Shown here: positions 9,917-34,663 of the stretch, piece by piece
How the letters are laid out: each line of letters starts with the position of its first letter
Numbering within the stretch: position 1 is the stretch's first letter
IMG/VR virus record: IMGVR_UViG_3300042465_004627
Span: 1-37,178 of that record
Direction: 5' to 3' (one strand)
DNA length: 37,178 nt
Source: a virus
The notes under the pieces: model-generated
Seen by the model: only the letters and a program-made list of their open reading frames with translations
What the model was told of the DNA's origin: nothing
Database searches by the model: none
Program-made: the position numbers and the translations under genes

Positions 9917-10999
9917 TTAGTGCGTTGCATAGCTTGCACCTCCGGTGGTTCCCGCTAACGGACCCGTTTGCCCACGGGCGAGAATGTTCATAGCCGCATT
10001 TACGTCCCGCATATGATGCGATCCGCAGTCAGGGCAGTCCCATTCTCTTACAACAAGTTGCTTTAGACCCTTGGGACCGGAAACCGATCCACAATTCGAG
10101 CAAACTTGCGTTGTATATCTTTCGCTGACGACTTCCACAATGCGACCTGCATTATTGCCTTTATACTGAAGCATTGCTTTGAGCATTCCCCAACCAGAAT
10201 CAAGAACAGCTTTTGCCATCTTGGTCTTGACCAGCTTTTTGCTCGATACATCACCGATATAAATTGCACCGTATTGTTCAACCATCGCTGTGCTGAACTT
10301 GTGCAGTGCGTCCTTGCGGCAGTTGGCCGCTTTCTTGTGCAATCGCTTTGCTTGGCGTTTGTGTGCCCGGCGTTGCGCTTGCCCAATCTTTTGCTCAAGG
10401 TTGCGATAGAACTTGGCGGCAGGCAGAACTTGCCCATCACTTGTTGTTGCTACATCCTTGAGTCCCAAGTCAATACCAATACCCCTTGTTGGCAGTTCCG
10501 TTTTTGTTTGCTCTGTGTTGACTGCGATGTTGAGATACCAATTCCCAAGACTGTCTTGGCTGAATGACCCGCCGCGCAAATCGAATTTGTCCAGCCCGTA
10601 GCTGTCAAACACCCGGAAGCGTTGACCTGCAAACACAATGCCGCCGTTCTTGCACTTGACTTGGCCACGCTTGAACGGAATCCAACCCAAAGATTTCTTT
10701 GAGCCTTTGCTTACCCGCCAGCGAAGTTTTGTTTTCTTGAACTGCACACGGCGTGTGGCGAATTCTGTTGCCACTTGCTGCATAGATGCCGACGGCAAAA
10801 ACTCAAGACCGTTCTTTGTTGCACCGGCAAGCAAGGTACACAGGTCGTAGCCGGAAAGCCATTTACTTTTACCAACATACGGTTTTGCTGCTTTGGCTGA
10901 CACTTCGTTGCAGTAATTGAACACTTGGTTGACTTCAACGGCGCAAGCGTTGAGCCACGTGTAGCTGTCTGGCCTGACTTTTACTTTAAGTGTTTTCAT
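9917..10999 (-). CDS. tnpB: TnpB RNA-guided nuclease, variant RuvC site
   Basis: A 360-residue OrfB/TnpB protein, near the usual compact length. The N-terminal half is the REC/wedge region. RuvC-I is GIDLGLKD with Asp177. A zinc ribbon holds C300, C303, C322 and C325, and RuvC-III is HMRDVNAAMN with Asp332. At the RuvC-II position, where the canonical Glu precedes Asp-Leu, this protein has IYIGDVSS (Gly249). A Glu occurs instead at 293 (VSERYTTQVC), a position that could take over metal binding. TnpB proteins normally cut DNA next to a TAM using an omega RNA. Activity of this variant is uncertain. The ATG overlaps the stop of the small upstream gene. Confidence 0.9.
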   Translation of the reverse strand: MKTLKVKVRPDSYTWLNACAVEVNQVFNYCNEVSAKAAKPYVGKSKWLSGYDLCTLLAGATKNGLEFLPSASMQQVATEFATRRVQFKKTKLRWRVSKGSKKSLGWIPFKRGQVKCKNGGIVFAGQRFRVFDSYGLDKFDLRGGSFSQDSLGNWYLNIAVNTEQTKTELPTRGIGIDLGLKDVATTSDGQVLPAAKFYRNLEQKIGQAQRRAHKRQAKRLHKKAANCRKDALHKFSTAMVEQYGAIYIGDVSSKKLVKTKMAKAVLDSGWGMLKAMLQYKGNNAGRIVEVVSERYTTQVCSNCGSVSGPKGLKQLVVREWDCPDCGSHHMRDVNAAMNILARGQTGPLAGTTGGASYATH

Positions 11000-11118
11000 T
11001 TCAAAAACCTTTCAAGTGCCTGACGCACAAGTTCGCTAGCGGAATAGCCACTTTCTTTTGCCTTGGCTTTGAGCCGTTGCAAGAGTTGGATCGGAATATA
11101 AAAGTTGGTGCGTTGCAT
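10996..11118 (-). CDS. ribbon-helix-helix (CopG-like) regulator encoded with tnpB
   Basis: A 40-residue protein: MQRTNFYIPIQLLQRLKAKA, then KESGYSASELVRQALERFLK. A short beta strand followed by two helices with SASELVRQAL is the ribbon-helix-helix pattern; such proteins bind palindromic operators as dimers. The stop overlaps the tnpB ATG (ATGA), so it is coupled to tnpB. A palindrome lies over its own -10 box, so autoregulation of the tnpB operon is the natural inference. Confidence 0.75.
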   Translation of the reverse strand: MQRTNFYIPIQLLQRLKAKAKESGYSASELVRQALERFLK

Positions 11119-11153
11119 GATGTATATTATACACAAAGAATCAGAGGATGCAA
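11119..11153 (-). promoter_or_regulatory. near-leaderless sigma70 promoter and palindromic operator of the tnpB operon
   Basis: On the minus strand TTGCAT (11148-11153), a 16-base spacer and a consensus TATAAT (11126-11131) stand 7 bases before the ATG at 11118. The mRNA would therefore begin at or next to the start codon. TGTATA-T-TATACA (11121-11133) is a perfect palindrome covering the -10 box and is a good operator candidate for the adjacent ribbon-helix-helix protein. Confidence 0.65.
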
Positions 11154-31950: not shown

Positions 31951-32026
31951 TGGTGCGCCGTACACGATTTGAACGTGTGACCAACAGCTTAGAAGGCTGC
32001 TGCTCTATCCGCTGAGCTAACGGCGC
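31951..32026 (-). tRNA. tRNA-Arg (anticodon UCU), CCA encoded
   Basis: A full cloverleaf of 76 bases can be drawn: acceptor GCGCCGT / ACGGCGC, D arm GCTC...GAGC, anticodon stem GCAGC / GCTGT around CTTCTAA (anticodon TCT), T arm ACACG-TTCAAAT-CGTGT, and a genomic ACCA end. It reads AGA (and possibly AGG) codons, which are rare in many hosts. It is alone, between small leftward genes. Confidence 0.93.
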
Positions 32027-32226: not shown

Positions 32227-32742
32227 CTACTCCGACTCTGCCGCAAACTCACGGCAAGCATTTTCCGCCTCAGAAGCCGCCTGATTCTGCGATCTGCAAG
32301 GCGAATCAAAAATTACCCTAGGGCCGTCCCCGCCACGAACAACAACCAGCGCAACGAACCTACCAGCAACTCCAACCCCATAATCAACTACAACGCCCTG
32401 AAACGTCCCCGCAAGGCGCTTAAAAGAGCAGACTGGCACGAGACTAGCACCCGGCGTCAAAAACGTCTCCAAGGCGGTCCTATCCGTTTCACAGGAATTC
32501 TCCGCAACGAAGTTGTTGACCGCTTTCGGGTCGAATGACTCGACAAGCGCCGCGAAATCGTTAACAACATTGGGAACCGCAGGGAAACGAGTCCACTCAG
32601 GTGGACTCTCATCGTCATCATCACCCCATTGACAGTACGAATAGGGGTGGTGCCCAAACCGGGCACGAGCTTCTTCAGGACTGTTAAAGCTGCCCATGAC
32701 CTCATAACCCTGAGAGGGGTTGTTTGTTGCGTAGTAGATCAT
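32227..32742 (-). CDS. phage protein of unknown function
   Basis: A 171-residue protein: MIYYATNNPSQGYEVMGSFN, an acidic stretch WGDDDDESPPEW near 39-50, and a Val/Gly-rich strand region (VVVDYGVGVAGRFVALVVVR). AAAGGTG precedes the ATG. No family recognised. Confidence 0.62.
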   Translation of the reverse strand: MIYYATNNPSQGYEVMGSFNSPEEARARFGHHPYSYCQWGDDDDESPPEWTRFPAVPNVVNDFAALVESFDPKAVNNFVAENSCETDRTALETFLTPGASLVPVCSFKRLAGTFQGVVVDYGVGVAGRFVALVVVRGGDGPRVIFDSPCRSQNQAASEAENACREFAAESE

Positions 32743-32954
32743 GACAACACCTTTGCCAATTCAACGGCTTTATCGTGACTGTCAACCGGGAAGACCCGGA
32801 ACTGTTTGTTGTTTTTGCGAACTTCCCTGAGGGCTTCGTAAGCAGTACACTCGTAAGCAGACCAGATAACCCGAGTGGTCACAGCATGAACACGGGCCTT
32901 GGTGAGGTCAGATTGAATTTCACGCTCGCTGGAAAAATTTGTGAATTTAGGCAT
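32739..32954 (-). CDS. small phage protein preceded by repeat element R1
   Basis: A 71-residue protein, MPKFTNFSSEREIQSDLTKA then RVHAVTTRVIWSAYECTAYE and a helical end. AGGATAACCAAA precedes this ATG. An upstream in-frame ATG (MACDFARF) lies inside the repeated leader element and may be a leader peptide or an alternative start. Function unknown. Confidence 0.62.
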   Translation of the reverse strand: MPKFTNFSSEREIQSDLTKARVHAVTTRVIWSAYECTAYEALREVRKNNKQFRVFPVDSHDKAVELAKVLS

Positions 32955-32973: not shown

Positions 32974-33029
32974 CTTGCAAAATCGCAAGCCATAGGAACC
33001 CATTAAGAGTCCCTACAGTTTGAGATTTA
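32974..33029 (-). repeat. intergenic repeat element R1 (structured leader candidate)
   Basis: On the minus strand: TAAATCTCAAACTGTA, then the hairpin TAGGGACTC-TTAAT-GGGTTCCTA, then TATGGCTTGCGATTTTGCAA with a CTTGC/GCAAG mini-stem. It lies directly before the gene at 32739-32954. It shares its flanks with R2 and its hairpin with R3. The upstream microgene stop codon (TAA) is its first codon. Confidence 0.7.
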
Positions 33030-33146
33030 GGCAATCACAGATATCAAAGTCCGGGTTTCTCGGTCCCAAACTTCACAGCCACTGTGAATGGCCAGAATTT
33101 CAGCCTCGACCTGAGCGAGGAAGACCTTGTTAGCAATTGCGTTCAT
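33027..33146 (-). CDS. 39-residue microprotein between repeats R1 and R2
   Basis: MNAIANKVFLAQVEAEILAI, then HSGCEVWDRETRTLISVIA. A GGAGATAAGT Shine-Dalgarno is well spaced from the ATG. A helix followed by two short strands is likely. No family recognised. Confidence 0.62.
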   Translation of the reverse strand: MNAIANKVFLAQVEAEILAIHSGCEVWDRETRTLISVIA

Positions 33147-33166
33147 ACTTATCTCCGAGACACAAA

Positions 33167-33220
33167 CTTGCAAAATCGCAAGCCATATAACTCTGTCACA
33201 GTTATACAGTTTGAGATTTA
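33167..33220 (-). repeat. intergenic repeat element R2
   Basis: It shares TAAATCTCAAACTGTA and TATGGCTTGCGATTTTGCAA with R1, but the central hairpin is replaced by TATAACT-GTGACAG-AGTTATA, a different sequence forming an equivalent stem. It stands before the 39-residue gene. Confidence 0.7.
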
Positions 33221-33249
33221 CTCAACTCAGCGGGTTTCCCCGTGGCCAA

Positions 33250-33444
33250 TCACTTAGCCGTGTTCGGATACAACCAGGCCTGCAAAGCCTGCAAACAATC
33301 AGCCGCATGGGCCATTTTGCCCGTGTAAGTCGTGTTGTACTCACGACCATTGACCACCCAAGTGGTGGCTTTGCCCACACCGCTAGGGTGATAAGCAGTA
33401 ACTGACTTTCCACCGCTTTCGCTGGTGTTGACATCAATAATCAT
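33250..33444 (-). CDS. small phage protein of unknown function
   Basis: A 64-residue protein: MIIDVNTSESGGKSVTAYHP, then GKATTWVVNGREYNTTYTGK and a helical AADCLQALQAWLYPN. AAAGGTA precedes the ATG. Beta-rich followed by a helix. A competing overlapping frame (33222-33437) has poor composition. Function unknown. Confidence 0.62.
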   Translation of the reverse strand: MIIDVNTSESGGKSVTAYHPSGVGKATTWVVNGREYNTTYTGKMAHAADCLQALQAWLYPNTAK

Positions 33445-33529
33445 TTTTACCTTTCAAGTTGCACGGTTCAATCGGTTACTCAGAGGTTTTTAGTCTGAGT
33501 AATCACGATTAGTTGGGCAATCCGCAAGC

Positions 33530-33585
33530 CCCTATAAATCGCAAGCCATAGGAACCCATTAAGAGTCCCTACAGCTTGTAATCTA
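33530..33585 (-). repeat. intergenic repeat element R3
   Basis: It shares CTGTAGGGACTCTTAATGGG and TTCCTATGGCTTGCGATTT with R1 but diverges on both outer sides. It lies about 90 bases upstream of the 64-residue gene. The embedded ATG GCT TGC GAT is followed after one codon by a stop (MACDL). Confidence 0.65.
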
Positions 33586-33691
33586 ATGTCCTAAGACAAA
33601 AACACAAAAAGCCACAGTGAAGGGCGATGGTGGAGATTTAACGGCACTCCACACGTTGCCAACTATCGAAGTCTGCCTTATTCAAGCATGG

Positions 33692-33769
33692 TTACGGTGA
33701 CTGACCGCAAACAGGACATAGACCCGCAAGAGATTTTCGGCGGGGTTTTGTCGGTTGAAGTTGAATCAT
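33692..33769 (-). CDS. possible 25-residue single-knuckle peptide
   Basis: MIQLQPTKPRRKSLAGLCPV followed by CGQSP. It has one CPxCG knuckle and a basic N-terminal half. There is no strong ribosome-binding site. It is listed because a second frame of the same type occurs 0.7 kb away. Confidence 0.25.
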   Translation of the reverse strand: MIQLQPTKPRRKSLAGLCPVCGQSP

Positions 33770-34377
33770 TATTCCACGTTGATTATTTACGTGTCGGACT
33801 ATTCTTTCCGTCCGCTAGGTTTCTTGCTACACGCCGCAAGAACAGGCGTATATAACGGGTATTGTAAGTACCCGACCAGAAATCAACTAAACGCTTGAGA
33901 TTGCACAATGGTCAATACATCAACACCAATGACTGCGACACGACATTATGGCGCTATCGGGTATTATGTATTCAAGCCTTGCAAGGCTAAGTGCAATTGG
34001 TGGGCGTGTATGCATGGGGCTATTAACCGGTTCGCATACGTTATGGCCGATACCTGCAAAATGCCGCAGGGTATCGGTTTGTGTCTGGTGCACTGTAATG
34101 ATTAACTATGACAATTTATGATGATTTACAGAAGATATCCGCAATAGGTTTAGCCGTGCTATAGGCCGCGCCATGTTATGTGGTCAGTCATTCTGATATT
34201 CCGCAACGGTGCATTAAACGATATTCATGGGGTTAGGATTACCCGATAAACCGTGAAATTACTCAATCCGTATTGGTGCATTTATTGTCGCCATAATCAG
34301 CGACATTACATTAGATATATCAATTGGGTGATAATAATATCGGTGTCGGTTTATTCAACGTTAACGTCAATTGATTA

Positions 34378-34470
34378 TCAACGATACCCGCAAATAGGGC
34401 ATTTATTGATTTTAATCTGATATGGATTTTTAAAGAACACCCGCAAATTTGCAGGGGCTAAAAGTGGCAT
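34378..34470 (-). CDS. possible 30-residue single-knuckle peptide
   Basis: MPLLAPANLRVFFKNPYQIK followed by INKCPICGYR. It has a C-terminal CPICG knuckle, matching the layout of the 25-residue frame at 33692. No Shine-Dalgarno is seen. Low confidence. Confidence 0.25.
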   Translation of the reverse strand: MPLLAPANLRVFFKNPYQIKINKCPICGYR

Positions 34471-34500
34471 TAAATACAGTTTGCCGGTAGTTTAGATTAA

Positions 34501-34560
34501 GACCCCATAAAATGGCGGTGACAATCTAACAAGCAAAACAGACCCCATAAAATGGCGGTG
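34501..34560. repeat. two exact 20-bp direct repeats spaced 40 bp
   Basis: GACCCCATAAAATGGCGGTG occurs at 34501-34520 and 34541-34560 without a mismatch. The period of 40 bp is close to four helical turns, so a protein binding both copies would sit on the same face. This suits a regulator or replication initiator site. Confidence 0.85.
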
Positions 34561-34599
34561 GATTTTGCAAAACCCGCTAACTGTATCCCAATTAGCATT

Positions 34600-34663
34600 T
34601 TAGTGTAAAGACACTAATCAAAGGGCTAACCCTTTGATTAATGCCCCTTTGCAGGGCATTAAT
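34600..34663. promoter_or_regulatory. three consecutive perfect hairpins
   Basis: TTAGTGT-AAAG-ACACTAA (34600-34617), TAATCAAAGGG-CTAA-CCCTTTGATTA (34615-34640) and ATTAATGCCC-CTTTGCA-GGGCATTAAT (34637-34663) follow one another with shared bases. They lie just past the stop of the leftward gene at 34667. The last one may terminate that transcript; the first contains the recurring ACACTAA motif. Confidence 0.6.

Follow-up and report, generated by a model that had tools for sequence, protein, structure and literature searches.

Three intergenic stretches in the early region of a phage genome are copies of one 54-56-nt element (R1-R3), lying on the minus strand, which is the coding strand there. 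The ends of the element are identical letter for letter, and the central hairpin has been swapped for unrelated sequence of the same shape. We suggest that the element acts in cis as a structured RNA leader between cistrons, with constant parts that would be read by a factor, and give this reading about an even chance. The arguments leading to it are the constant arms, the exchanged stems, the pairing on the sense strand, the uniform orientation and place, and the reshuffled neighbouring genes. The alternatives weighed below overlap with it and with each other, and the confidence placed in each is not mutually exclusive. The window, i.e., the whole stretch of DNA analysed, is the IMG/VR virus record IMGVR_UViG_3300042465_004627 (37,178 bases) and represents a phage without cultured close relatives. 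A sequence-only reading had reported three repeated elements at 32974-33585, and all features were found at that place on the minus strand. The genes around the elements are encoded on the same strand, on which the order is R3, gene A, R2, gene B, R1 and gene C (Table 1).

Table 1. Positions of the elements, the hairpins of R1 and the downstream genes in the window.
Feature	Position	Strand	Description
Element R1	33029-32974	-	Left arm TAAATCTCAAAC; hairpin P1 of type A (loop TTAAT); hairpin P2 CTTGC-GATTTT-GCAAG
Element R2	33220-33167	-	Arms and P2 as in R1; P1 of type B, TATAACT-GTGACAG-AGTTATA
Element R3	33585-33530	-	P1 of type A; altered left arm TAGATTACAAGC; without P2
Hairpin P1 of R1	32990..33018	-	12 pairs
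Hairpin P2 of R1	32974..32989	-	3' end is the limit of sequence conservation among copies
Gene A	33250..33444	-	64 aa; downstream of R3; relatives not found
Gene B	33027..33146	-	39 aa; downstream of R2; SD GGAG; without Pfam match
Gene C	32739..32954	-	71 aa (MPKFTNF...); downstream of R1; ribosome-binding site AGGA

The aligned unit consists of TAAATCTCAAACTGTA, an insert and TATGGCTTGCGATTTTGCAAG, and TATGGCTTGCGATTT occurs exactly three times within the window. R1 and R2 were said to share both flanks and to differ in their hairpins, which holds for a left flank of 16 nt and a right flank of 21 nt. R1 and R3 indeed have the hairpin in common, together with 15 nt to its right, but differ at four left-arm positions and in the stretch beyond GATTT. 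The second hairpin, CTTGC-GATTTT-GCAAG, had been overlooked; it is present in R1 and R2 and absent from R3. At the foot of P1, 5 bases per side are invariant across all copies. The element measures 53-56 letters across the window phage and its relatives.

Related phages provide additional copies. The contigs L123 and L125, which stand for one close relative, match the window at 82-93% identity across long aligned stretches, and the terminase of L123 is ~26% identical to those of Seuss, JWF and SHOU24, which are 77-85-kb phages. A 15-base pattern scan of viral contigs led to L100, with matches that were mostly chance or unrelated, including L124, L126, L132-L134 and almost all contigs from L004 to L122. 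L100 is a genuine relative with early genes in common and a terminase 76% identical to that of L123. Its copy E1 carries a third, unrelated insert, CCGTTACGTGTAGCGG, between the same arms, forming the hairpin CCGTTA-CGTG-TAGCGG. The 36 nt of the arms are unchanged between the window and E1, and alignable flanks longer than 100 nt are only 68-78% identical. Conservation of the stem despite sequence change had been proposed with related phages as the test, and it withstands this test, with a third stem between the same arms. The other L100 copy, E2, contains a variant of insert A and an altered second hairpin. L125 has one copy at the R3 position, which is 100% identical to R1 and not to R3. The contig ends exactly on the last base of this copy, as would be expected if the genome carried another identical copy. 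The set amounts to six copies, of which five are distinct, and comes from three related phages, and covariation therefore stems from few events.

Searches beyond these phages recovered no further element. The covariance model that had been called for was built from the copies and scores R1-R3 at 70-86 bits, having been trained on the same copies. No copy was found with it in the more distant relatives L129-L131 (fragments), Seuss, JWF or Lumi. The element had no match by blastn among cultured phages and plasmids, and matched no family in a covariance-model search of Rfam 15. The genome collection yielded neither a pattern match nor a terminase relative. The count of further copies is zero in the other viral contigs, phages, plasmids and genome records searched, in which strict patterns may miss divergent copies.

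The exchanged inserts retain pairing beyond what their composition provides. The three P1 inserts pair inwards from the conserved foot over 7, 5 and 6 consecutive pairs, a result equalled by 0.4%, 1.1% and 1.1% of shuffles of the same letters (p about 0.004-0.011 each). The stability of P2 is equalled by 8-9 of 2000 random tails (p about 0.004). E2 has a different stem in its second hairpin, TGGC-ATTTTC-GCCA, with the loop letters ATTTT retained, and 42 of 2000 random tails equal it. RNA folding z-scores are -5.2 for R1, -1.2 for R2 and -5.0 for R3, and many shuffles fold as well as the R2 and E2 leaders. The arms themselves, AAATCTCAAACTGTA and TATGGCTTGCGATTT, can pair at 13 of 15 positions if G-U is counted, giving a long hairpin (P0) on top of which P1 stands. 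On the alignment, 98.9% of cells are paired in the P0+P1 structure versus 25-50% in slid controls, and three pairs are changed on both sides. The altered left arm of R3 pairs with the right arm to form one long hairpin of -27.9 kcal/mol, which 26 of 2000 random left arms equal. P0 is not above chance in R1, R2, E1 and E2, where 14-50% of random left arms do equally well. Pairing thus does not explain the conservation of the left arm.

Such a long hairpin could be an RNase III processing site as in T7. The arms and hairpin would then form an imperfect duplex of 18-22 pairs, cut to separate and stabilise small mRNAs. P0+P1 has 18-22 pairs and a 4-7-nt loop, is the predicted best or near-best fold in every copy except E2, and in R3 beats 98.7% of random left arms. 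The placement of copies between early genes would fit as well. However, P0 remains at chance level in most copies, and the tandem fold of P1 and P2 is equally stable. RNase III also has no need for identical sequence, and alone would not explain 36 unchanged letters. We consider processing by RNase III rather unlikely as the role of the element.

The strand on which the element folds is informative about the molecule involved. R1 reaches -22.0 kcal/mol as sense RNA versus -13.5 as antisense, and the advantage of sense over antisense RNA is large in R1, R3, E1 and E2. It arises because G-U pairs of the sense strand become mismatches on the opposite strand; each of the five distinct copies has 2-6 G-U pairs in its predicted sense fold. 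With DNA folding parameters, the strands differ little in R2, E1 and E2. The strand bias of folding, as modelled, thus moderately favours RNA. It also bears on whether the arms might be a DNA operator or recombination site bound by a repressor, activator or recombinase, as may be the case for stoperators, SPBRE or ESAS-like repeats. A DNA site would account for the near-perfect conservation of the arms and their imperfect inverted symmetry, and the ESAS of cluster K likewise combine inverted repeats and a variable spacer ahead of starts (PMC3203893). The sense-strand preference for G-U pairs and the occurrence in only one orientation speak against a DNA site, which also does not predict a spacer staying a hairpin in three different sequences. 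We regard this explanation as distinctly unlikely.

All six copies are in the sense of transcription, and most lie after a stop codon and before the ribosome-binding site of the following gene. R2, R1, E1 and E2 lie immediately 5' of the ribosome-binding site, and the TAA of R1 and of E2 is the stop codon of the preceding gene (gene B for R1). The description of each copy as standing upstream of a small gene is apt for R1 and R2, which end ~20 nt ahead of their start codons, but less so for R3, which is 86 nt from gene A. The interval from R3 to gene A (33442-33530, minus strand) contains a separate 9-pair hairpin, TTACTCAGA-CTAAAAACC-TCTGAGTAA, which perhaps replaces the second hairpin that R3 lacks. 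The proposal of a functional RNA leader gains indirect support from the sense-strand G-U pairs in the predicted folds, the uniform orientation and the place before the ribosome-binding site. The leader peptide (MACD...) proposed alongside it is not supported and was set aside. The short open reading frame continues differently in each of the five copies whose downstream sequence is known, i.e., MACDFARFIRITK (fused to gene C), MACDFASLCLGDKYERNC, MACDL, MACDFASF and MAWHFRHDGRGERDD, and no conserved SD. The change in E2 replaces two residues yet keeps a hairpin, and the changes in R3 also count against a peptide.

Promoters and terminators were likewise considered. A scan for sigma70 promoters gave 6 promoter-like sites, none of them in R1-R3 and their number equal to that in shuffles, and no terminator-like site for intrinsic termination was found in R1-R3. 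A promoter-plus-terminator cassette of the T4 type (PeSL) would share the setting of the element, an early hyperplastic region with small genes exchanged between copies. Yet a search in and at the elements revealed neither a sigma70-type promoter nor an intrinsic terminator, and the U run after the stem is just four long, so such a cassette has only a slight chance of being the explanation.

Comparison of the phages shows genes and inserts exchanged among copies. The stretch from the first element to gene C encodes genes A and B in the window and genes D, E and F in L100, and the two sets do not evidently resemble each other. The type of insert is independent of position, as at the R3 position the window and L125 have type A and L100 has type C. 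The homologue of gene C in L100 (7870-8097) has no element ahead, hence gene C can do without one. The notion of a mobile regulatory cassette fits the unrelated genes between copies, gene C with or without a copy and the L125 copy matching R1. Homologous recombination at the conserved arms would be the simplest route of exchange. A selfish DNA repeat, palindromic like REP or attC and without function for the phage, might also explain the presence or absence of the element before gene C, the near-identical copies at different sites and the coincidence of the ends with hairpins. However, copies are always in sense and always between genes, the covariance model revealed no separate antisense or intragenic copy in the contigs searched, and no dedicated recombinase was seen adjoining the element. 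The DNA folding energy is also low and without strand bias in most copies. A selfish repeat is therefore very unlikely in our view.

Returning to the RNA leader, we infer that the element is transcribed as a structured RNA within the early polycistronic transcript, located after the stop codon of one small gene and before the ribosome-binding site of the next. The conserved 5' box AAAUCUCAAAC would be mostly unpaired, and the upper stem of P1 would need only to be a stem and thus be free in sequence. The second hairpin would present AUUUU, which is conserved, in its loop. The constant parts are probably recognised by a factor of the phage or host, such as an RNase or an RNA-binding protein, and recognition might set the processing, stability or translation of the downstream mRNA segment, with elongation as another conceivable target. 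The element may have spread by homologous recombination between copies. More speculatively, the copies could represent a new mobile family of phage RNA switches, a proposal that we consider rather unlikely. The constant 5' box and loop letters would serve a trans factor, the stem would be interchangeable, and the RNA might adopt alternative folds, namely one long hairpin, two hairpins in tandem or, by prediction in R2 and E2, a three-way junction that closes on the ribosome-binding site. If true, such a switch would govern the expression of any small early gene that is shuffled in behind it.

Three additional structures were evaluated and rejected. The letters of the left arm (AAAUC) and of the P2 loop (GAUUU) fit an H-type pseudoknot, in which a single loop base is unlikely on geometric grounds to span the helix. 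A bistable switch between P0 and P2 has folds within ~1.2 kcal/mol (R1, R2, E1 and the L125 copy), and 14-18% of random left arms are equal in R1, R2 and E1. Pairing of the left arm as an anti-SD is predicted for just two copies, R2 and E2, and overall is not above that at ordinary ribosome-binding sites of the window.

The surroundings of the elements include other features. A region of ~1.1 kb without evident genes is found in the window (33590-34660, minus strand), L100 (5920-7020) and L123 (10540-11620). It contains TTGCGG 7, 11 and 12 times, respectively, in sense only, compared to ~0.2 in shuffles. Some of these motifs are at the 3' side of hairpin loops (CCC-TTGC-GGG), in L100 not beyond other GG sites. 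L131 (terminase 65% identical) has two TTATCCACA boxes, which are DnaA-like, at 1410-1940 in place of the TTGCGG-rich region. The noncoding early region of the window also contains AGACCCCATAAAATGGCGGTG twice at 34500-34560, as exact 21-nt copies 40 nt apart. A tRNA-Arg (TCT) gene adjoins the early genes (31951-32026, minus strand). The replication gene block includes an IS605-type OrfB (TnpB) gene (9917-11136, minus strand) with a small ribbon-helix-helix gene adjacent to it.

Early phage regions contain the small, fast-changing genes for host takeover. To our knowledge, how early genes swap yet stay controlled is largely unknown outside T4-type phages. Fixed recognition ends combined with a free stem would offer a second route, apparently without a promoter, to exchanging controlled genes. 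The conserved arms and the P2 loop would provide a direct handle on the factor reading the element.

The earlier statement that no described family resembles the element was too strong, because the PeSLs of T4-type phages and the ESAS of cluster K are close in kind. The element works like both yet misses a defining feature of each and is not a member of either. The RNase III sites of T7 are imperfect long hairpins between early genes; here, a duplex is possible in every copy and predicted above chance only in R3. The put RNA of HK022 acts in antitermination through the beta' zinc-binding domain, and an analogous put/nut-like RNA could modify RNA polymerase against termination. Two adjacent stem-loops (predicted in 5 of 6 copies), the location in the leader of early transcripts and the length of about 55-70 nt resemble put (PMC9378689). 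However, put occurs once per operon and a processive mechanism needs no copy per gene, no Rfam family was matched, and no sequence relation to the element was found. The sequence of P1 is free, whereas several single changes in put destroy its activity (PMC9378689). An antitermination function of this kind seems highly improbable.

The ESAS of cluster K mycobacteriophages lie directly ahead of the start in some of the genes and consist of 17-bp imperfect inverted repeats flanking a variable spacer (PMC3203893). Imperfect inverted repeats and a variable spacer upstream of starts are found in the element as well, but its spacer is itself a kept hairpin. ESAS are accompanied by a 13-bp SAS at the start site, and the element has none: conservation stops at GCAAG before the ribosome-binding site, and the sequences downstream of R1, R2, E1 and E2 differ from each other. 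The presence of ESAS follows the gene family, whereas gene C differs in this respect between phages. Promoter-early stem-loop (PeSL) cassettes were reportedly described in T4-type phages by Arbiol in 2010 and Comeau in 2014. PeSLs are repeated intergenic stem-loop cassettes among small early genes that mediate shuffling (PMC4503421). The gene content between copies is shuffled in a similar way here, with genes A and B replaced by D, E and F. PeSLs combine a sigma70 promoter and a terminator, both of which were not found in the element, and the element differs from them in having constant arms around an exchanged stem.
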